64,000 bases of DNA, taken from positions 158,965 to 222,964 of the forward strand of contig JACRLG010000002.1 of assembly GCA_016235345.1 (NCBI GenBank). The letters run 5' to 3'. Position numbers and translations under genes: made by a program. Shown here one piece after another: positions 14,378 through 32,892 of the stretch; position 1 is the stretch's first letter; every line of letters starts with the position of its first letter. This DNA comes from Deltaproteobacteria bacterium. Its GTDB lineage: Bacteria; Desulfobacterota; Desulfobacteria; Desulfobacterales; Desulfatibacillaceae. The notes beneath the pieces were generated by a model, which was not told where the DNA came from, ran no database searches, and saw only the letters and a program-made list of their open reading frames with translations.

Positions 14378-15694
14378 ATGCTCTCCATCCCCTCCCCGAA
14401 AAGCCTGCGAAAAGCCGCGATAACAGCCTTAGTGGCCGCAGCCCTGATGCTTCCCCGTCCCGCTTTCGCCCTTCTGGGCGACTCCGACAAGGCCTTCGGG
14501 CTGGCAGGGTCGGTGCGGGGTATCGCCCTATATAGCGATCCGTATGATTTTCCGGCCTTTTTCGGAACGGACGGCGACGCCGACACCACCCTCTCCGGCA
14601 TTCTCCGGGTCACGGCCCTGGGGCGTCCCACCGAAAAATTCTCGTACGAATTCCATGCCGTTACCCATTACGACCATTTTTCCGCAAGCGGCGGGGACGC
14701 CCTTTCATCATCGGGAAAGCCGCAATACCGGGCCTGGGACGAGGCCTGGGACATTTCGAGCGGCGAACACCATGCATCCTCCCTTTCCATCGACCGGGCA
14801 AGCGTGAAAATCTCCCTAAGGCGCGCCGACCTCACCATAGGCAGGCAGGCCGTCACCTTCGGCAAGGCCTGGTTCTGGAATCCGCTGGACCTCTTTTCCC
14901 CCTTCGACGCCACCCAGTTCGACCGGGACTACAAGGCAGGAGTTGACGCCATACGCCTGGACGCCCCATTTTCCGACTTTTCCGGGGCCACCGTCATTTA
15001 CGTTGCAGGTAGGGAACTGGACGGGTCGGGCGGCTACAAGACAAACGACAACATCGACGCCTCGTGGAGCGGCTCGGCCCTGATCGGGCGGCTTTACGCC
15101 ACGGTCAGGGGCTTTGACCTGGCCCTTTCGGGCGGAAAGGTTTACGGCGGCTTCCACGCCGGGGCCGGGGCCAGCGGAGAAGTGGGGCAGCTTGCCCTGC
15201 GCTTCGAGGCGGCTGGCTTTTTCGCGGACGACAACGGCCCCGCCCTTCCCTTCCCCCTTGCGGGCGATCTTTACGAGGACAGCGCAACGGCTGTAATCGG
15301 CATTGGCCACAGGTTCGACAACAGCCTGGACATCGAGGCTGAGTACCTGATCAATTCCGGCGGGGCCGGTGAAGACTGGAACGAGGCTTTCAGCCGCTTT
15401 CAGAAAGGGGCCATACCCCAGATGTCCCGGAACGTCCTGGGCTTTTCCGCCTCCTACGAGATAAACCCCCTGGCCACGGCGCGGATTTCCGTCATCCAGA
15501 GCCTTTCGGCCCCCATATCCACCAATATATCGCCGAATCTCACCATCAGCCTTTCCGACAACGCCGAAGCAATAATGGGGGCTTCCATAAACGCCGGAAA
15601 AAGGCCCAAGGCCCCCTTGGGAGCGCCCGACATCAAAAGCGAGTTCGGCTCCTTCCCCTCCCAGTTTTACGTTGAAATCAAACAATATTTCTGA
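14378..15694 (+). CDS. Outer-membrane beta-barrel protein
   Basis: 438 residues. It has a signal peptide with a clear hydrophobic core and AFA cleavage (AALMLPRPAFALLG), alternating amphipathic beta strands throughout, and a C-terminal aromatic ending FYVEIKQYF, the signal used by the BAM complex. The segment DLTIGRQAVTFGKAWFWNPLDLFSPF resembles porin-like or DUF1302-type barrels (RxxxxWG-type strand followed by NPxDxF). It directly follows the LolD-like ATPase gene, which suggests the barrel is the outer-membrane partner of the exporter. The substrate is unknown. Confidence 0.8.
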   Translation: MLSIPSPKSLRKAAITALVAAALMLPRPAFALLGDSDKAFGLAGSVRGIALYSDPYDFPAFFGTDGDADTTLSGILRVTALGRPTEKFSYEFHAVTHYDHFSASGGDALSSSGKPQYRAWDEAWDISSGEHHASSLSIDRASVKISLRRADLTIGRQAVTFGKAWFWNPLDLFSPFDATQFDRDYKAGVDAIRLDAPFSDFSGATVIYVAGRELDGSGGYKTNDNIDASWSGSALIGRLYATVRGFDLALSGGKVYGGFHAGAGASGEVGQLALRFEAAGFFADDNGPALPFPLAGDLYEDSATAVIGIGHRFDNSLDIEAEYLINSGGAGEDWNEAFSRFQKGAIPQMSRNVLGFSASYEINPLATARISVIQSLSAPISTNISPNLTISLSDNAEAIMGASINAGKRPKAPLGAPDIKSEFGSFPSQFYVEIKQYF

Positions 15695-15882: not shown

Positions 15883-16644
15883 ATGTCACGAAACCGAGCG
15901 AAAATTTCCTTGTGCCTCATGGCCGCAGCCGTGGCGCTCGCCCTGGCCGCAAGCCCGGCCTTCACCGAGCAGAAGAAGGCCCAACCGGCAAAAGCCCAGG
16001 CCGTGAAAGCCGCGCCCGTCGTGGCCCTGCCGCCCAACGCGGTTGCCGACGGAGACCTTGTGAGGCTCAAGAACATCACCATCAACAAAAAGACCAGGGA
16101 AATCAGGATCGCCGTAAAAACCGCCATCGACCGTGGCATCCTGGAATACCTCCTGGTGGGCGAAAAGGGCAAGGCCTACGAATCTGCCTTCAAGACGGTT
16201 GACGCGCTGCCCTCGGAGCTTCATTTCGCCCTTATTCTCATCGGTTGCGAAGCCCTGCCCTTCGACAATTTCATGAGGCTTCTGGAAACCGCCAAAGGGC
16301 GGGATGAGTTGAAAAAAAATTTCCCCCAGACTCTTTTGACCCTGGAAATAGCGCAAAAAGGCAAGCCCGTCCCCCTGTCCACTGTGGTGCGCGACCGCGA
16401 GGGTAAAAAGGATCCCCTTATCTGGGTCCACACCGGCGGGCGCTTTCTTGGGGAAACCCCGTACAGGGCGGACCAGGAGCTTTCCTTCATCGGCGTGTGG
16501 CCCGATGTTTCCGCCGTGATAAACCTGTTTTCGGGCCGCCAGAACCCATACCGGGGAAATTTCGGCTTTGAAATGAACACCAGGGCCAAGGGTCTTAAAA
16601 AGGACCTGGACTATGAAATCGTGATCAGGAGGTACTCCAAATGA
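15883..16644 (+). CDS. Secreted YdjY-domain protein
   Basis: 253 residues. A signal peptide spans residues 1-28 (LMAAAVALALAASPAFTE), then an Ala/Lys/Pro linker. The domain at residues 60-160 has the YdjY hallmarks: NITINKKTREIRIAVKT, then a Gly-Ile-Leu-Glu-Tyr-Leu-Leu-Val core followed by GKAYESAFKT and LHFALILIGCEALPF. YdjY domains occur in periplasmic proteins near redox or envelope functions; no activity is established. The stop overlaps the ATG of the squalene-cyclase-repeat gene (ATGA), so the two proteins are co-translated and probably work together. Confidence 0.75.
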   Translation: MSRNRAKISLCLMAAAVALALAASPAFTEQKKAQPAKAQAVKAAPVVALPPNAVADGDLVRLKNITINKKTREIRIAVKTAIDRGILEYLLVGEKGKAYESAFKTVDALPSELHFALILIGCEALPFDNFMRLLETAKGRDELKKNFPQTLLTLEIAQKGKPVPLSTVVRDREGKKDPLIWVHTGGRFLGETPYRADQELSFIGVWPDVSAVINLFSGRQNPYRGNFGFEMNTRAKGLKKDLDYEIVIRRYSK

Positions 16645-17831
16645 AGTTGAAAAAAGCGGCTGCCGTTCTTGTTGCGGCGGCATTCATTCTTGCTCCGGTG
16701 GTTTACGCCAAGCAAAAACCCGTCACCATAGGAAAGGCTGCGGCCAAAGGGAAGGTTTCGGTTTCCCTGGAGCAGCGGGCCATGGCGGGCCTGAGAAGCG
16801 CCACCAAGTATTTCATGACGGCCCAGAAGCCCGACGGCTCCTGGAACGACGACCCGGCCATTACGGCCCTGGTGGCCTACAGCCTCATGCTGGACCCGGT
16901 CTACACGCCGGATAAAAAGGTTCCGGCGGCCATCCAGAAGGGCCTCAATTACGTGGCGAAATTCGCCCAGCCCGACGGCGGCATCTACCGCAAGGAATTG
17001 TCCAACTACACAACCGCAGTCTGCCTCATGGCGCTTACCCGGTCCAACCAGAAGCAGTATGGGAACGTGATCGCAGGCGCAAGGAAGTACCTCATCGAAA
17101 CCCAGGTTGACGAGGGCGAGGGCTACACAAGCGACAAGGTCTACTACGGCGGCCACGGCTACGGCGGAGCCAACAGCGACGGCAGGCCCGACATGAGCAA
17201 CACCTGGCTCGCCCTTTCGGCCATCAGGGCGGCTGAGCAGTATCAGGACCGCTTCTCCGGCGTGGTTCCCAAGGACAAGGGACAGGTGGAGCGTGAGGAG
17301 AAGGAGATGGGGCTTCACTGGCAAAAGGCCCTTGCCTTCATCAACCGCTGCCAGAACAACAAGGCGGTCAACGACCAGCCCTACACGATGGACGACGGCG
17401 GCTTCATATACGAAACCGGCACGTATAAAAAGGAGCGCAGCCACTCCTACGGCTCCATGACCTACGCAGGCGTAATGAGCCTTCTGATAGCCCGGACCGA
17501 CAAGAGCGATCCCAGGGTGAAGAAGGCCGTGGAGTGGATAAGGGCCAACTACACCTTGGACACCAACCCCGGCTTCGGCACGGAATCCATTTTCTACTAC
17601 TACACCACCTTCGCCAAGTGCATGGACCTCATCAACGAGGACGTTATAACCGACACTATGGGCAAGCAGCACCGCTGGCGCGAGGAGCTGGTCCACAAGC
17701 TGGTCTCCCTTCAAAAGGGCGAGGGCTATTGGCAGAACCCCAACAACCGCTACATGGAAAACATGAAGGAACTGGCCACGGCCTATTCCGTGATCGCCTT
17801 GAAACACGCGCTACGTCACCAGAGCCTGTAA
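16641..17831 (+). CDS. Secreted prenyltransferase/squalene-oxidase-repeat protein
   Basis: 396 residues with a signal peptide (AAAVLVAAAFILAPVVYA). The body has alpha/alpha-barrel repeats of the squalene-cyclase/prenyltransferase type: QKPDGSWNDDPAITALVAYS, QPDGGIYRKELSNYTTAVCL, YSLMLDP and TYAGVMSLLIARTDKSDP. I do not see the DxDD catalytic motif of squalene-hopene cyclases, so a cyclase activity is not supported. Such secreted repeat proteins are often binding or scaffold proteins. It is coupled by a 4-bp overlap to the YdjY gene. Repeat R4 starts about 10 nt after its stop. Confidence 0.78.
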   Translation: MKLKKAAAVLVAAAFILAPVVYAKQKPVTIGKAAAKGKVSVSLEQRAMAGLRSATKYFMTAQKPDGSWNDDPAITALVAYSLMLDPVYTPDKKVPAAIQKGLNYVAKFAQPDGGIYRKELSNYTTAVCLMALTRSNQKQYGNVIAGARKYLIETQVDEGEGYTSDKVYYGGHGYGGANSDGRPDMSNTWLALSAIRAAEQYQDRFSGVVPKDKGQVEREEKEMGLHWQKALAFINRCQNNKAVNDQPYTMDDGGFIYETGTYKKERSHSYGSMTYAGVMSLLIARTDKSDPRVKKAVEWIRANYTLDTNPGFGTESIFYYYTTFAKCMDLINEDVITDTMGKQHRWREELVHKLVSLQKGEGYWQNPNNRYMENMKELATAYSVIALKHALRHQSL

Positions 17832-18018: not shown

Positions 18019-19110
18019 ATGAAACATCCCCGACATCGTGCGGACAGCCCCGCCAAAAAAAGCGGCGGGCGATTTCCAATCGCGGCCATAGTCTTTTCCG
18101 TGTTCCTTCTGGTGTCCGGCGCTGTGGACGCCGCCGTTGCGGACACGGCCAAGCCAGCCCAGAAGGCACCGCGTTTTTACTGGAAATTCGGCACAATGGC
18201 CCCGGACGGGGTGGGCTACTCCAACCAGATCAACACCTACGTCATGCCCCTGGTCACCTCGGTGAGCCGGGGAGAGGTGAAGGTAAAGGTCCACTGGGGC
18301 GGCTCGATGGGGGACGACCAGGACATCATGCGCAAGATGCGCTTCGGATACCTGAACGGGGCCGGCCTTTCCGGCCAGGGCGTCACCTTTCTCTGCCCCG
18401 AAACCTCCGTGCTTTCACTTCCCTTCCTTTTCAACGACTACGAAGAGGTTGACGCCATAGTAAAACAGATGGGCTCGCGCTTTGAAAGCTACATGGAAAA
18501 GAGCAACGTTTTCCTTTTCTCGTGGCTGGACCAGGATTTCGATCAGATATATTCCAACAGGCCAATAACCAAGCTCTCCGATTTTTCCAAAATGCGATTT
18601 CTCACCTGGTACGGAACCCTGGAAGAGGAGGTCCTGAGGGCCCTGGGAACCAAGCCCGTGCCGGTGTCCGGCACCCTCATCGCCCCGGCCATCAAGCAGG
18701 GGCAGGCCGACGCCGTTATCTCGCCAGCCATCTTCATAGTGGGAAGCCAGATGTTCACACAGCTGAAGTACGCAAGCACCTTGAACATCCGCTATTCCCC
18801 GGCCATGGTGGTGATCCGCTCGGAGGACTGGCGGAGCCTTCCTGCCGAATACGTGAAAAAATACTACGAGCTTCGGGGCGCGGTGCGGGAAAGGATGCTC
18901 CAGGACGTGAGGCGCAACAACAAGAGGTTCTTCGCCGCCATAACCAAGTACGGAATAGTCGAATCCCGCATCTCCGAAAAGGACAAGGATGAAATAAGGA
19001 GGGCCGTAACGCCTCTTTGGAGGAAGATGTCCGGCAGGCTCTACCCGGCCGATCTTCTGGACGAGCTTCTGGTCACCCTTGCCCGATACAGGGCTTCCAA
19101 GGCCGAGTGA
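18019..19110 (+). CDS. TRAP-type (DctP family) periplasmic substrate-binding protein
   Basis: 363 residues with an N-terminal signal (AAIVFSVFLLVSGAVDAAVA). The DctP fold is visible: FYWKFGTMAPDGVGYSNQ at strand 1, VKVHWGGSMGDDQDIMRKMR, the long connecting helix, then SGTLIAPAIKQGQADAVISP where the family normally has GEIYTALQTGVVDGxE. TRAP binding proteins capture organic acids in the periplasm. No DctQ or DctM membrane subunits are adjacent; instead an RND/MMPL exporter gene follows. It may therefore act as an orphan binding protein or sensor for the envelope cluster, which is inference from gene order. Confidence 0.85.
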   Translation: MKHPRHRADSPAKKSGGRFPIAAIVFSVFLLVSGAVDAAVADTAKPAQKAPRFYWKFGTMAPDGVGYSNQINTYVMPLVTSVSRGEVKVKVHWGGSMGDDQDIMRKMRFGYLNGAGLSGQGVTFLCPETSVLSLPFLFNDYEEVDAIVKQMGSRFESYMEKSNVFLFSWLDQDFDQIYSNRPITKLSDFSKMRFLTWYGTLEEEVLRALGTKPVPVSGTLIAPAIKQGQADAVISPAIFIVGSQMFTQLKYASTLNIRYSPAMVVIRSEDWRSLPAEYVKKYYELRGAVRERMLQDVRRNNKRFFAAITKYGIVESRISEKDKDEIRRAVTPLWRKMSGRLYPADLLDELLVTLARYRASKAE

Positions 19111-19195: not shown

Positions 19196-19666
19196 ATGGG
19201 AAGCGCCAGCCCCGGCAGGCTCCGAAAAATTTCAAAGGCCCTTGATTACGACAGGTGCTTGAACTGGATAGTTCTCCATCCCCTTGTTGTGGTGGCAATG
19301 ATCCTTTTGTGCACCGTAGCCCTGGGATGGCGGCTCCCCAAGCTCCAGATAAGGGCGAGCTCGTATGAAATAGCCATAAAGGACATCGAGGCCACAAAAA
19401 ATTACGAAAACTTCCTCAGGGAATTCGGCGGCGGCGAATACATCCAGGTCATAGCGAAAACAAGCATTTCGGTTTTCGAGCCCGAAGTTTTCAGGCATCT
19501 CGAAGCGCTTGCCGACAGTTTGGCCAAGATTCCCGGCGTGGTGAAGGTGGTGAGCCTTCCGGACGCCAAAAGGGACATGGACCTTTTGGACGAATGGTCC
19601 GTGGCGCAATTCGAGAAAATAATCAAACCCGTAAAACTCTTCTCGTTTCGGCTGTGGACGCAATAA
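19196..19666 (+). CDS. N-terminal fragment of an MMPL/RND-family exporter (frameshifted)
   Basis: About 156 residues from ATG 19196 (a TTG at 19079 inside the dctP gene is an alternative). It carries the first membrane helix of an RND protein (LHPLVVVAMILLCTVALG) and the start of the first periplasmic porter domain, including the RND-like EFGGGEYIQVIAKT and LAKIPGVVKVVSLPD. The frame ends at TAA 19664 just where the porter domain should continue; the continuation is found in another frame from about 19621. The junction lacks roughly 20-40 residues expected in this family, so a net deletion with loss of frame is likely. It belongs with the next entry as one broken gene. Confidence 0.7.
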   Translation: MGSASPGRLRKISKALDYDRCLNWIVLHPLVVVAMILLCTVALGWRLPKLQIRASSYEIAIKDIEATKNYENFLREFGGGEYIQVIAKTSISVFEPEVFRHLEALADSLAKIPGVVKVVSLPDAKRDMDLLDEWSVAQFEKIIKPVKLFSFRLWTQ

Positions 19667-22320
19667 TCAAAAACGAAAAAAGCGGACTTTTCAGCCTTTA
19701 CTCAATAGGGATGCCCATAGTCTCCCAGACCCTTCTGGCCACCATTAAGAGGGATTTCGCCGTACTGCCGCCCATCACCCTCCTGGTGATGATTTTAACC
19801 CTTTTCGCCTTTTTCCGGTCGGTGCGCCTGATCATTCCGCCGGTGGCCACCATACTGGTCTGCCTTGTGTGGACCTTCGGAATAATGGCCTGGACCGACA
19901 AGCCGGTTTCCTCGCTGTCGCTTGTGGTGCCCATAATCCTGATGGCCGTGGGAACCGCCTACTGCATGCACGTCCTGTCGGAATACGTGCAGGTGGCCAA
20001 GACCGCGCGCACAAGGGCGGAGGCCGCAGCCGAGTGCATAAGGCAGGTCCAGCTTCCCACCATCCTCACCATAGCCGCCTCCCTCATAGGTTTCGCGCCC
20101 CAGCTCTTTTCGCCCATGCAGATAATACGGGAGTTTTCCCTGCCGTCCTGCCTGGGAATCCTGGCCTTTCTGATCCTCATAGTCACCTTTTTTCCGGCGG
20201 TTCTGGCCATCTTTCCCCTGCCGGGCGAGGAAAAACGGCGTTTCGTGGGCAAGGACCGCCTGGACCGGCTGCTTTCCGCCATTCTGGCGCTGGCCACCAA
20301 AAAGCGGCGCACCAACCTGATAGTCTTCGCAATTTTGACCGTGATCGGAACCGTGGGCGTCGCAAAGCTCAAGATCGAGGCCGACACCACAAAGTATTTC
20401 CGCGACAACTCGCCGGTGACGCGGCATTTCCACGATGTCTACAAGGACATGTCCGGCAGCTTTCCCATCAACGTGGTTCTTGACGCGGACAAGGAGAACT
20501 ATTTCCGCAATCCGGCCAACCTGGCCAAGATCATGGAGGTTCAGAGATACCTGGAGTCGGTGCCCGGAATCGACAAGACCATCTCCTTTTCCGACTACAT
20601 GATGCTCATCAATTACTCGGTCAACAACTACGGTCCGGAATCCTACTCCCTGCCGCGAGACGAATCCATAATCCCCAACCTTCTGAATCTTTACAAGATG
20701 GTTCTTGGCAAAGAGATTTCAAAAAGGTTCATGCGGGATGATTTTTCCAAGACATCCATACTCATGATGATGCACATCTCAAGCTCCCACCAGTGGCTGG
20801 AAACCGAAAAGCTCATCCGGGAGTACTGCCAGAAACGATGGGGGCAGGACTTTTCGGTCAACCTCACCAGCATGGGGGTGGTGGTGGCCCACTCCAACGC
20901 CGTCATCACGGCGAACCTGATCCAGGGCCTTTTTTACGTCATCGTGCTCCTTTTCTGCATAATGCTGGTTTTGTTCCTTTCCCTGAAGGTGGGCCTCATC
21001 GCCATCATTCCGTCCATTTTTCCCCTTGTGGTGGTTTTCGGGCTCATGGGCTGGCTCGACATAGAGCTTTCCATGAACACGGCCATGATCGCAACCATAG
21101 CCATCGGCCTTGCTGTGGACGACACCCTGCATTTCCTTTCCCGATACAACACATCCTTCAAGACCCACCTGGACCAGGAGCGGGCGCTTTCCGAGGCCAT
21201 GAGTTCCGCAGGCAGGGCCAAGATACTGACCACGGTGACCATCTGCCTGGGCTTTTCCATACTGATGCTATCGAGCTTCAAGCCAACGGCCATGTTCGGA
21301 GGTCTTCTGGTGGCAACGCTCATGGCCTCCATCTTGGGCGATCTCATAGTGCTCCCCTCGGCCCTCATGAACGTGGAATTCCTCACCGCCTGGGACCTGG
21401 TGAGGGTGAGGCTGGGGCCGGAGCCCACAAGGCTGATTCCGCTTTTTTCGGGCCTTTCGCGCTTCCAGGTGCGGACCATTCTGGGTTCGGGAACCATCGT
21501 GGACTTTCCCGAAAACCACGTCTTTTCGCTCAGTGGGTCGGACAGAGAATTTCTGCACACCATTTTGTCGGGAGAGGTGGGCATCTACTACGCCCAGTCG
21601 GCCCAAGACGCCAGGAACGGCATCAGGGTCACCACCTTCCGCACGGGCGACGTTATAGCGGACGTGCCCACCGATCGCTGGTACAAGGAAAGCGCCTTTT
21701 TCGTGTGCGCCACGCCGGTCGAGATGCTCATGATAAACCCGCGCACCATAAGGCGGCTGCAGTGGCTTTACCCGCCTGCGGCGTCCAGGTTCATCACCAA
21801 TTACATAAGCATCCTGGCAGACCGCCTGGACCGCACCACGCGGATGCTTGCCACATCCGGCTACCGCGACGACATAACGGGCCTCACGAGCCCGGTCACC
21901 TTCCCTCACGCGGTGGAGATCGAGACCGAAAGGATCAGGCGCTACGGCGGCAAGCTCTCGGTACTGATACTGGAGGTGGTGAGTTGGCGGGAGATGCTTC
22001 GTTCCAGCGGCTTTTCGGCCAGCGACAAGGCCCTTTCCATCCTGGCCCAGAACCTTGCGAGCCAGCTTAGGTGCTTTGACATCATGTGTCGGCTGGACGA
22101 CTGGAGGTTCGCCGTGCTTTTAGTTCATGCCGGGCCTGCCGAGACCGCCGCAGTGACCCGAAGGCTCAAGGCGCTCTCCGCCAAGCTGATGGAGGAGGGC
22201 CTGCCCCCGCTGGTGCTTGCGTCGGGCGCGGCCTATTACGCCTCTGGAATCGCCCCCTCGGCCCAGGAGCTCATTAGCTACGCCATAAGCGACCTTGAAC
22301 GGGACAGGCTGGAAATCTGA
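19594..22320 (+). CDS. MMPL/RND exporter body fused to a cNMP-binding and a degenerate GGDEF domain
   Basis: This 908-codon frame continues the exporter; the ATG at 19594 is only the first in frame and lies upstream of the homologous region. Residues 45-600 hold RND helices 2-12 with two porter segments (LPPITLLVMILTLFAFF; the second helical block contains IAIGLAVDDTLHFLSRYN, the family's conserved Asp pair). After about residue 615 a Crp-like cNMP-binding barrel follows (SGLSRFQVRTILGSGTIVDF to IADVPTDRWYKESAFFV). From about residue 756 a GGDEF-type domain follows (YRDDITGLTSPVTFPHAVE), but the catalytic loop reads RLDDWRF in place of GGDEF, so it should not make c-di-GMP. It may sense nucleotides and gate export of an unknown lipid-like substrate. 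Confidence 0.8.
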   Translation: MVRGAIRENNQTRKTLLVSAVDAIIKNEKSGLFSLYSIGMPIVSQTLLATIKRDFAVLPPITLLVMILTLFAFFRSVRLIIPPVATILVCLVWTFGIMAWTDKPVSSLSLVVPIILMAVGTAYCMHVLSEYVQVAKTARTRAEAAAECIRQVQLPTILTIAASLIGFAPQLFSPMQIIREFSLPSCLGILAFLILIVTFFPAVLAIFPLPGEEKRRFVGKDRLDRLLSAILALATKKRRTNLIVFAILTVIGTVGVAKLKIEADTTKYFRDNSPVTRHFHDVYKDMSGSFPINVVLDADKENYFRNPANLAKIMEVQRYLESVPGIDKTISFSDYMMLINYSVNNYGPESYSLPRDESIIPNLLNLYKMVLGKEISKRFMRDDFSKTSILMMMHISSSHQWLETEKLIREYCQKRWGQDFSVNLTSMGVVVAHSNAVITANLIQGLFYVIVLLFCIMLVLFLSLKVGLIAIIPSIFPLVVVFGLMGWLDIELSMNTAMIATIAIGLAVDDTLHFLSRYNTSFKTHLDQERALSEAMSSAGRAKILTTVTICLGFSILMLSSFKPTAMFGGLLVATLMASILGDLIVLPSALMNVEFLTAWDLVRVRLGPEPTRLIPLFSGLSRFQVRTILGSGTIVDFPENHVFSLSGSDREFLHTILSGEVGIYYAQSAQDARNGIRVTTFRTGDVIADVPTDRWYKESAFFVCATPVEMLMINPRTIRRLQWLYPPAASRFITNYISILADRLDRTTRMLATSGYRDDITGLTSPVTFPHAVEIETERIRRYGGKLSVLILEVVSWREMLRSSGFSASDKALSILAQNLASQLRCFDIMCRLDDWRFAVLLVHAGPAETAAVTRRLKALSAKLMEEGLPPLVLASGAAYYASGIAPSAQELISYAISDLERDRLEI

Positions 22321-29586: not shown

Positions 29587-32500
29587 TCACGAACACTTTG
29601 AAAAGCCGCATGAGTGGCATACCAGACAGCCGGATTCATGGGCCAGCATCTGGCCGCAGTCCGGGCACTGGCCAGCCGGGCCCGTGGGAGTCAGCTCCGG
29701 CGAGCCGATTCTTTTTTGCAGCACCTGGGCCACGGCGTCCGGGCAGGAAAGCACCTGGCGCGAGTCCTGCCACGCGGGCGAGGGGCAGCGGATTCCGATA
29801 AGCTGCTTCACCACCTCCGCCGGGGGGACGCCGCTTCTGAGAGCCAGGGAGATGAGGCGGCCCGTGGCCTCGGTCTGGGAACTGGCGCAGCCGCCGGTTT
29901 TTCCCATCTGGGCGAAGACCTCGGCCATGCCCTCGTCATCGCGGTTCACCGTTACGTAAAGGTTGCCGCAGCCGGTCTTTATCCTCTCGGTTATTCCCCA
30001 GGTTGCAAGGGGCCGGGCGCGGGGGGCAAGCCTGCCGGGGGCCTGGACATCATCCTTCTGGGGATTGTCGGGCGTGGCGGATCCAACGCAGAGGACCTGC
30101 CTTTCCCGACTGCCGTCCCGGTATATGGTGAGCCCCTTCAGGCCCGCCTCGAAGGCCGAACAAAAGAGGTCCTTCACGTCCTCGGAGGTGGCGCTGGCCG
30201 GAAGGTTGACTGTTTTGGACACCGCGTTGTCCGTGTGCCGCTGAAAGGCCGCCTGGATGCGCACATGCCATGACGCCGGGATGTCGTGGGAGGTGACGAA
30301 AAGCCGCCTGACGGATTCCGGCACAGCCTCGATGTTTTTCACCGAACCTGTTCGGAGCACCTCCGCAACCAGGGCCTCGGAATAAAAGCCCATGCTTTTG
30401 GCGGTTTCGGCGAAAAGCGGGTGAAGCTCCGGCAGGCTGGTTCCGTCCAGCACCCGGCGGTTGTAGGCCACCGCAAAAAGGGGTTCTATGCCCGAACTGG
30501 ACCCGGCGATTATGGATATGGAGCCTGTGGGGGCGATGGTGGTGGTGGTGGCGTTGCGCATGAAGGGCGTTTCGGGGGTATCGTAAACGCTTCCCTCGTA
30601 AGCCGGGAAGTTTCCGCGCTTTTTCGCAAGTTCCGCCGAGGCGGCCTTGCTTTCGGCGTCGATGAGGCTCATCACCTCGCTCGCCGCCTTTTCCGCCTCA
30701 TCCGAATCGTAGGGAATGCCCAAGCGGATGAGCATGTCCGCGAATCCCATGACGCCCAGGCCGATCTTCCTTGTTGCCCGGGTGCGTTCGGCTATGGCTG
30801 GCAGGGGGTACTTGTTGATCTCGATCACGTTATCGAGGAAATGAACCGCAGTGCGAATGGTTTCCCGCAAAAGATCGCGGTTCAAGGCCCCGTTTTCCAC
30901 CATGCGCCCAAGGTTGATGCTCCCCAGGGTGCAGGATTCATAGGGGAGAAGCGGCTGCTCTCCGCAGTTGTGGGCCATTATTCCATTGGCGTCGAAGCGG
31001 TTGACTCCTGGAACGCCTGCGTCGAAGACCTCCTCGAACCCGTCGGGAACCAGTTCCTTGAATCTGGCGGTGAAGGTCTCGCGGTTCATGCGGCGCTTGT
31101 AGCCAGAAAGCAGAATTTTCAGGCGCGCCTGTTTCTCCTCGTGGCGAAAGCCCACAAGAGTTTGAAACCGGAGCATGTTTTCGTTGGCGATGGCCAACTC
31201 GTGCTGCGCCCTGGTGGGAAATTCCCGTTCGCCGCCTTTACCGTCGGGTAAAAGTGCAAGACCAGCCTTTCTCCGGTTTTCATAGATGACGGAGGCTATA
31301 CCGAGCCGCAAAAGCATTCTCTGGACAGCTTGAAGGGTTTCAAGGTCGCTCTGGGCAAGCCTTACGCTCACCCCCTTTTTCAGGTCCCCCTGGACCGAGC
31401 CGTCCGCGTCGAAAAGTCCGCCCAGAAAGCCCCTGTAAAAATCGCTTGAGCATTCCTCCAGGGCCTTCGTGATTCGCTTGTGACCCGGCTTAAGGCCCAA
31501 GGACGCGCACACGGCCTTCAGGGAACCGGGACTCATGCGGTACTCCCCTCGCCCTTTGACCATGGTCCAGCCGCAAAAATCGCTCCTGTGCGGAAGCGTT
31601 TTGGCAAAGGCAAGGGCTGCCTTCATCACGCCGCTTTCCTGTTCCGCCCCCCCGTTGGCCGCAAGGGGCAGAGGCCAGACGGAGAGCACGGCCTTGTCGG
31701 TTTTAAGGGTTCCATCCCCCAGAAGAAGACCCGTGAGGTAACCCTCGGCCATGCCGAACGAGCCGGGCCAGGACAGAAAATTCCGGTGATCGTTCAAGAT
31801 TATCCTGTCGCCCTTTTGAAGATTTTCCGTAGCGACGAAAGCTGGCTCCGATGCCTCGCCCGAAAAGGCCAGCACCCTGTGATCCCCGGTGAGCCTCAAA
31901 CTCAATCCTTCAAGGGTTTCCAGGCGGAACACGGGCTTTATTCCGGTGGAAAAAAATCCCCTTGCGTCGGTTTTGAAAACAGCTCCGTTTACGACGCATT
32001 CCGTCTCGATGCCTAAAAGGTCGCGGGCCATTCGCGGCCCTCTGGCGGTCATTATCCAGGTGTCGCCCGTAACGCATGGATTTGTTGCCTCGATTTTTCC
32101 GAGCGCGGGGGTGGGGTTGTCGCGGTTGATGCGGTCTATGAAAATTACGCCCGGCTCCCCGGTGGCCCAGGCCGATGAGGCGATGCGGTCGAAGACCCCT
32201 GCTGCCGGGATTCTTGCGGAGACCTCACCCGTGCGCGGATTTATGAGGTCGTAGAGGTCGTTTTTCTCCACCGCCTCCATGAAGCGGTCGGTTAAGGCCA
32301 CCGAGATGTTGAAGTTGTTGAGGATGGAAAGATCGTCCTTGGCGCTTATGAAATCCATTATGTCCGGGTGGTCCACCCGGAGTATCCCCATGTTGGCCCC
32401 GCGCCGGGTTCCGCCCTGTTTCACGGTTTCGGTGGCGGTGTCAAAGACCTTCATGAAGGATATGGGACCGGAGCTGACCCCTGCGGTGGACATCACCGTG

Positions 32501-32892
32501 TCGTTGGCGGGCCGCAGGCGCGAAAAGGAAAAGCCGGTGCCGCCGCCGCTTTTGTGGATGAGGGCGGTATGCTTCAAGGAATCGAAGATGCTTTCCAGGC
32601 TGTCTTCAACCGGCAGAACGAAACATGCCGAAAGCTGGCCCAGCCTTCGCCCGGCGTTCATGAGGGTGGGGGAGTTGGGAAGAAAGAGCCCACTTGAAAG
32701 AAGCCCGTAAAAACTGTTTTCGGTCTTGCCGGGCTCGGTTGCAGGATCAAAGGCAAGATCGGCGGAAGCCACGCTTTTGGCCACCCTCCGGAAAAGCTCC
32801 TCCGGGGTCTCCACAGTGTTTCCGTGAAGGTCCTTTTTGAGATAGCGCCGCCGAAGCACCACCAGGGCGTTTTCCGTGAGAAAGGCGGTCAT
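29587..32892 (-). CDS. nrdJ: Vitamin B12-dependent (class II) ribonucleotide reductase with intein
   Basis: 1101 residues in the precursor, 731 after removal of a 370-residue intein (residues 273-642). The host protein reduces ribonucleotides using adenosylcobalamin without oxygen. It shows NSPTLMNAGRRLGQLSACFV with one redox Cys, the GEPGVIFIDRINRDNP loop, and NPCGEQPLLPYESC, whose Cys is the thiyl-radical residue of the N-x-C-x-E motif. The C-terminus has a TSCPD-type domain (GGCASSQTEATGRLISLALR) and a zinc ribbon (CPDCGQM...CHSCGFSKC). The ATG 32892 follows GGGAG. It is last in a minus-strand run behind LysR, 40 nt away. Confidence 0.95.
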   Translation of the reverse strand: MTAFLTENALVVLRRRYLKKDLHGNTVETPEELFRRVAKSVASADLAFDPATEPGKTENSFYGLLSSGLFLPNSPTLMNAGRRLGQLSACFVLPVEDSLESIFDSLKHTALIHKSGGGTGFSFSRLRPANDTVMSTAGVSSGPISFMKVFDTATETVKQGGTRRGANMGILRVDHPDIMDFISAKDDLSILNNFNISVALTDRFMEAVEKNDLYDLINPRTGEVSARIPAAGVFDRIASSAWATGEPGVIFIDRINRDNPTPALGKIEATNPCVTGDTWIMTARGPRMARDLLGIETECVVNGAVFKTDARGFFSTGIKPVFRLETLEGLSLRLTGDHRVLAFSGEASEPAFVATENLQKGDRIILNDHRNFLSWPGSFGMAEGYLTGLLLGDGTLKTDKAVLSVWPLPLAANGGAEQESGVMKAALAFAKTLPHRSDFCGWTMVKGRGEYRMSPGSLKAVCASLGLKPGHKRITKALEECSSDFYRGFLGGLFDADGSVQGDLKKGVSVRLAQSDLETLQAVQRMLLRLGIASVIYENRRKAGLALLPDGKGGEREFPTRAQHELAIANENMLRFQTLVGFRHEEKQARLKILLSGYKRRMNRETFTARFKELVPDGFEEVFDAGVPGVNRFDANGIMAHNCGEQPLLPYESCTLGSINLGRMVENGALNRDLLRETIRTAVHFLDNVIEINKYPLPAIAERTRATRKIGLGVMGFADMLIRLGIPYDSDEAEKAASEVMSLIDAESKAASAELAKKRGNFPAYEGSVYDTPETPFMRNATTTTIAPTGSISIIAGSSSGIEPLFAVAYNRRVLDGTSLPELHPLFAETAKSMGFYSEALVAEVLRTGSVKNIEAVPESVRRLFVTSHDIPASWHVRIQAAFQRHTDNAVSKTVNLPASATSEDVKDLFCSAFEAGLKGLTIYRDGSRERQVLCVGSATPDNPQKDDVQAPGRLAPRARPLATWGITERIKTGCGNLYVTVNRDDEGMAEVFAQMGKTGGCASSQTEATGRLISLALRSGVPPAEVVKQLIGIRCPSPAWQDSRQVLSCPDAVAQVLQKRIGSPELTPTGPAGQCPDCGQMLAHESGCLVCHSCGFSKCS
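30967..32076 (-). mobile_element. Intein with LAGLIDADG homing endonuclease inside nrdJ
   Basis: The insert is exactly 1110 bp (370 residues). It begins CVTGDTWIMT (block A, nucleophile Cys1), has the block B TxxH as TGDHRV (intein residues 63-68), two LAGLIDADG-type motifs (TGLLLGDG near 115-122 and GGLFDADG near 219-226) and ends GIMAHN followed by the extein Cys (blocks F and G). The terminal His-Asn and the +1 Cys are all intact, so splicing should work. The +1 Cys is the catalytic cysteine of the reductase, so no active enzyme forms without splicing. The ends are set by the uninterrupted host motif NP/CGEQPL. Confidence 0.92.

Follow-up and report, generated by a model that had tools for sequence, protein, structure and literature searches.

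The closest described relatives of the protein analysed here are HAE3/MMPL carriers of the RND superfamily (TIGR00921 and PF03176; HpnN, MmpL3/4/5 and NPC1), which share its carrier fold and its sequence family. Unlike the proteins described below, the known members have no Crp-like or GGDEF tail, and in our clade the acidic residue of TM4 is replaced (GTAY). Among transporters that carry signalling domains, Ks-Amt5 is an ammonium transporter that is fused to an active histidine kinase and acts as a sensor (PMC5764959). Like our fusion, it joins a transporter fold and, at the C-terminus, a signalling domain in a single chain, and kinase tails are also found in a sister branch of our carriers; but it belongs to another transporter family and its kinase is active, while our fusion has a dead GGDEF domain after a Crp-like barrel. 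The "Ammonium transporter" with a GGDEF domain in PDB entries 8qj3 and 8qpf is also from another transporter family, although the GGDEF portion of 8qj3 is matched by the profile of our tail at E = 4e-14. A third comparison is with dead-GGDEF receptors of the PelD type. PelD acts as a c-di-GMP receptor and serves polysaccharide secretion. It resembles our protein in that the catalytic motif is lost, the I-site is kept, and the protein is in the membrane; it differs in its role in polysaccharide secretion and in its partner domains, and our tail is a predicted receptor.

Two more systems resemble the carrier or its neighbor. In BstA/BstB/BstC sterol transport, an MMPL-family RND protein is encoded with a periplasmic lipid-binding protein, and the portion of the paper drawn on here mentions no sensory tail (PMC10942540). 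The BstA model matches the N-terminal fragment of our carrier at E = 0.001 only, which is far under the cut-off. TRAP transporters (DctP/DctQ/DctM) share the DctP type with the gene upstream of our carrier, but there is no DctM in the region we analysed. We came across no account of MMPL-cNMP-GGDEF or MMPL-kinase proteins in the open-access literature, and searches there for MMPL with GGDEF or cNMP domains, for RND/GGDEF/kinase fusions, for MMPL with NiFe hydrogenase, and for Amt-diguanylate cyclase returned nothing relevant. In other words, transporter-signalling fusions, MMPL-cNMP proteins, and dead-GGDEF receptors are already known, and it is the MMPL-cNMP-GGDEF and MMPL-kinase combinations for which our open-access searches gave no precedent.

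We analysed a stretch of 64,000 nucleotides (the window) from a genome of the Desulfatibacillaceae. An earlier note, made from the sequence, had read 19196-22320 as a single frame. This is correct for most of the protein, as the carrier, the barrel and the GGDEF domain share one frame from 19594 to 22320, but the region of TM1 is in another frame:

18019-19110, + strand: DctP-family (TRAP-type) periplasmic binding protein, directly upstream of the carrier (PF03480, E = 4.3e-40; NF037995, E = 6e-53)
19196-19666, + strand: N-terminal part of the MMPL carrier in frame 2 (about 150 residues, with TM1 and the initial periplasmic segment), ending at a premature TAA
19594-22320, + strand: remainder of the carrier, Crp-like barrel and GGDEF domain, in frame 1, with carrier homology from about 19643
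19642/19643, + strand: junction of a 79-nt gap, with a frameshift relative to intact homologs (DNA alignment with L004)

The long open reading frame encodes 908 amino acids and runs from the carrier to the GGDEF domain without interruption. The nearest homolog (L004) is on a 4.5-kb contig of a deltaproteobacterial MAG from the same genus, and has a DctP gene followed by one intact carrier open reading frame of 1077 amino acids. (Contig G001:C245 has the same sequence as L004, so we counted the pair once.) The N-terminal fragment is 68% identical to residues 1-147 of L004. When the DNA is aligned, the window copy has a single gap of 79 nt, which removes 26 conserved codons and changes the frame; the missing sequence holds columns that are conserved among the relatives. 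A programmed frameshift is ruled out as the cause of the two frames, because those codons are gone and not just shifted. Protein identity to L004 is 68% before the gap and 70% after it. Since these values are about equal, the lesion is either recent or an assembly error: the window copy is a recent pseudogene or an assembly flaw, and if the assembly is correct, then it is a recent pseudogene. Whichever the origin of the gap, an intact carrier cannot be read from the window, and the intact first repeat with TM1, which is present in the homologs, is absent.

Given the frame break, the fusion itself might be an artefact of assembly that joined separate genes. We consider this extremely improbable. 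The fusion point is about 1.8 kb downstream of the break, and a search for the architecture found MMPL, cNMP and GGDEF domains in a single open reading frame in more than 15 homologs from other genomes and several families, which refutes an artefactual fusion. Within the window's family, these are L004, L036-L039, L013, L040 (which contains a run of unknown bases), and the paralogs L045 and L046. Others are from other families of the order (L041-L044 and L059) or from elsewhere in the phylum (L058 and L060-L062). L004 aside, identity among them is 27-40%. Distant homologs can have strong domain scores: for example, L041 has E = 1.7e-16 for cNMP and 6.4e-18 for GGDEF, and L060 has 7.9e-17 and 8e-21. 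In complete relatives, both domains are in the same open reading frame as the carrier, rather than in a separate downstream gene.

The carrier belongs to the HAE3/MMPL RND superfamily, with two MMPL repeats, an RND/SSD-type bundle, and periplasmic porter domains. The long open reading frame matches PF03176 (MMPL) in two stretches (E = 4.9e-24). It also matches TIGR00921 (E = 4e-59), at 200 bits, which is under the 352-bit cut-off for that subfamily. A full-length AlphaFold2 model of L004, whose placement of domains is unreliable (pLDDT 76.8, pTM 0.58), matches MmpL4/5, NPC1, MmpL3 and HpnN in Foldseek. The carrier fold and the analogy to BstA/BstB (PMC10942540) point to a lipid-like substrate. 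Throughout the clade of tailed carriers, TM4 is GTAY-like and TM10 mostly has DD, so the two helices do not each carry an acidic residue. One-sided acidic sites are also present in plain relatives (L034 and L035). Every listed member retains the Asp of TM10, and a loss of transport is therefore not obvious.

The tail has these features in the window copy:

21505-21759, + strand: Crp-like cNMP-type barrel, degenerate in this copy (PF00027, strands in the AlphaFold2 model, Foldseek, profile match)
21646-21708, + strand: position of the phosphate-binding cassette, GDVIADVPTDRWYKESAFFVC, where the canonical GEMG...PRSAT is replaced (alignment of 19 homologs)
21772-21855, + strand: long connector helix from the barrel to the GGDEF domain (helix 132-159 of the AlphaFold2 model)
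21856-22317, + strand: GGDEF fold, catalytically dead (PF00990; Foldseek match to 5euh, TM 0.83 by target)
22069-22080, + strand: I-site motif RxxD (RCFD), kept in 17/19 homologs
22096-22110, + strand: the former GG(D/E)EF motif, now DDWRF; the motif is kept in 0/19 homologs
22162-22164, + strand: Arg that aligns with the secondary I-site Arg (PleD R390), present in 16/16 scorable homologs that keep RxxD

The earlier note had proposed a cNMP-binding barrel and a degenerate GGDEF domain, and structure prediction supports both folds. An AlphaFold2 model of the C-terminal 313 residues, built on a 13-row alignment, has a barrel, a long helix, and a GGDEF fold (pLDDT 80.9, pTM 0.72). In Foldseek, this model matches CRP-family regulators as well as GGDEF structures, including ones with c-di-GMP bound, such as 5euh (rmsd 2.0). 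The profile of the tail alignment matches GGDEF chains in the PDB with E-values down to 1.9e-26, and it also matches CRP and the regulatory domains of PKA and PKG. So the Crp-like barrel of the window (amino acids ~638-722), which is weak by Pfam (PF00027, E = 0.03-0.14, under the cut-off), is backed by profile and fold searches. Its binding signature is another matter: the window copy lacks the phosphate-binding cassette and its conserved Glu and Arg. Outside the window's branch, as well as in L045 and L046, the cassette is canonical or close to it (Glu and Arg are found in L041, L042, L043, L044, L045, L046, L058, L060, L061 and L062). It is half decayed in L037 and L039, and the window has lost it, as have L004, L036, L040, L038 and L013. 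In the window's branch, the barrel has probably turned into a connector; outside it, the sequence suggests that the barrel may also sense cAMP or cGMP.

The GGDEF domain (amino acids 758-867) is clear by Pfam (PF00990, E about 1e-12 to 5e-12; 46-49 bits, compared to a cut-off of 23.8). Its loop runs RCFD-IMCRL-DDWRF, which agrees with the degenerate RLDDWRF noticed earlier: GG(D/E)EF is replaced, and RxxD is at its usual spacing, five residues before the motif. Among 19 MMPL-fused GGDEF domains, none retain GG(D/E)EF and just 2 have the metal-binding Asp, which rules out an active diguanylate cyclase. The Arg and Asp of the I-site are retained in all of these domains except those of the paralogs L045 and L046, and all 19 have Arg at the position that aligns with R313 of PleD. 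(R390 and R313 follow the numbering of PleD.) As a baseline, we considered the 9 other GGDEF domains of the window's genome: 5 have RxxD and 2 have RxxD with the second Arg. Because the GGDEF domain is dead yet its I-site is kept, c-di-GMP is the likeliest messenger for the tail. As judged from homologs that share ancestry, such residues mark a c-di-GMP receptor and not an enzyme or a relic.

We favor, at a little short of an even chance, a lipid-type RND carrier that is under allosteric control by c-di-GMP at the dead GGDEF domain; the ligand, the direction of the signal, and the substrate are what we infer. In intact relatives, an HAE3/MMPL-type RND carrier is joined to a cytosolic tail made of the Crp-like barrel, the long connector helix, and the dead GGDEF domain. 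Binding of c-di-GMP at the I-site would alter the packing of the tail and turn the carrier up or down, and DctP would give or take a periplasmic, probably lipid-like, substrate. This reading draws on the loss of the catalytic motif while RxxD and the second Arg are kept, compared to the genome's baseline; on the single-frame fusions, with strong scores in distant homologs; and on the structural matches of the tail, the lipid-transporter folds matched by the carrier, and the DctP gene upstream. The earlier suggestion of an exporter gated directly by second messengers thus survives as a possible property of the relatives, whose architecture is conserved and whose folds are predicted; in the window, the gene is interrupted and the barrel is degenerate. 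Several points count against control by c-di-GMP. The homologs are not independent, retention of RxxD may be structural, the paralogs L045 and L046 lack the I-site, and the window copy gives no intact protein.

Some of these points also bear on whether the tail is just a structural or oligomerisation module that derives from signalling domains and binds no messenger. The decay of the cassette in the window's branch, the catalytic site that is dead throughout, and the two paralogs would all fit. We think this is unlikely, as the I-site residues have been selectively retained over large divergence relative to the baseline, and most of the distant members have a canonical cNMP cassette.

To see how the tails evolved, we considered a 57-row maximum-likelihood tree built on the MMPL portion. 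All of the GGDEF-tailed and kinase-tailed carriers form one clade of 30 rows (support 100/100), which lies next to MMPL carriers with a cNMP tail alone; MMPL-cNMP proteins are widespread in the phylum. Within the clade, the tails are either cNMP with a dead GGDEF domain or HisKA-HATPase, and the best tree has three changes per label, two of which are required by supported branches. A kinase tail is an output module, which suggests that the signal runs in the opposite direction from control by c-di-GMP. This is the basis for the main rival to that reading: the RND part would be the sensor, with its substrate-bound or proton-motive state relayed to the tail, and the dead GGDEF domain would signal by protein contact. 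The switching of tails within a fully supported clade fits this idea, and Ks-Amt5 is a precedent for a transporter fold that became a sensor kinase (PMC5764959). But the GGDEF tail has no catalytic output, its retained residues are those of a ligand site, and the Asp of TM10 is present in all listed members. We regard such a transceptor as a doubtful but serious possibility, and we prefer control of the carrier by c-di-GMP.

The genes near the carrier were also thought to form a cluster with it. In the window, a Lol-type permease, an ABC ATPase, YdjY, squalene-cyclase-like repeats and DctP are indeed nearby; a supposed beta-barrel at 14378-15694 had no match in a family search. Only DctP travels with the carrier: in the window's family, it is directly upstream in 6/7 loci with upstream sequence (the window, L004, L036, L037, L039 and L040; the exception is L038). 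The rest (the Lol-type ABC system, YdjY and the cyclase repeats) was not found near the carrier in same-family relatives with flanking sequence, so we rejected it as a partner. A TRAP transporter is ruled out as well, as there is no DctQ or DctM permease beside DctP, and DctM matches are elsewhere in the genome only.

We also noticed some features of the window and its genome (G000). The squalene-cyclase-like repeat protein (16641-17831, + strand) is weakly similar to hopene cyclases, far under their cut-offs, and stands in a run with YdjY and the Lol-type ABC system. A ribonucleotide reductase large subunit (29587-32892, - strand) has an inserted intein with LAGLIDADG and intein-splicing domains. 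The genome encodes 21 DctP binding proteins, with DctM permease matches at three places only, and orphan DctP genes have expanded greatly (e.g., C15:117982, C20:43515 and C28:142721); we looked for a neighbor that recurs beside these orphans and found none. One DctM match (G000:C2:269924-270952, beside a TAtT-family gene) skips about 64 profile positions inside one 368-aa frame, and is perhaps another internal deletion in this genome.

Outside the window's branch, [NiFe]-hydrogenase subunits and/or hyp genes are present in 18/20 loci of carriers with cNMP+GGDEF or kinase tails, in many cases right beside the carrier. These include 8 of the 9 loci with cNMP and GGDEF domains (L041-L044, L086-L088 and L090, but not L089) and 10 of the 11 with kinase tails (L005, L047-L053, L091 and L092, but not L093), versus 0/9 of the cNMP-only loci. 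For example, L088 has the small subunit, then the large subunit, then the carrier. In L047, a structural large subunit comes first, followed by the carrier-kinase, another small and large subunit, a PAS kinase, HypD, HypE and ApbE; the second pair, with the PAS kinase, presumably resembles regulatory (H2-sensing) hydrogenases. In the window's genome, the hydrogenase large subunit is matched solely on another contig. It is possible, though we hold it only tentatively, that this RND clade with exchangeable tails is an undescribed part of [NiFe]-hydrogenase clusters that couples the metabolism or the sensing of H2 to transport or signalling of a lipid or quinone type, and that the window's family redeployed it with a DctP receptor.

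The strong linkage points to a membrane part of hydrogenase gene clusters that has gone unrecognised. That the same carrier naturally bears a histidine kinase in place of this tail offers a direct test of the direction of the signal. If the tail binds c-di-GMP, then a second messenger would control a lipid-type RND carrier through a site on the same chain, with no need for a transcription factor.
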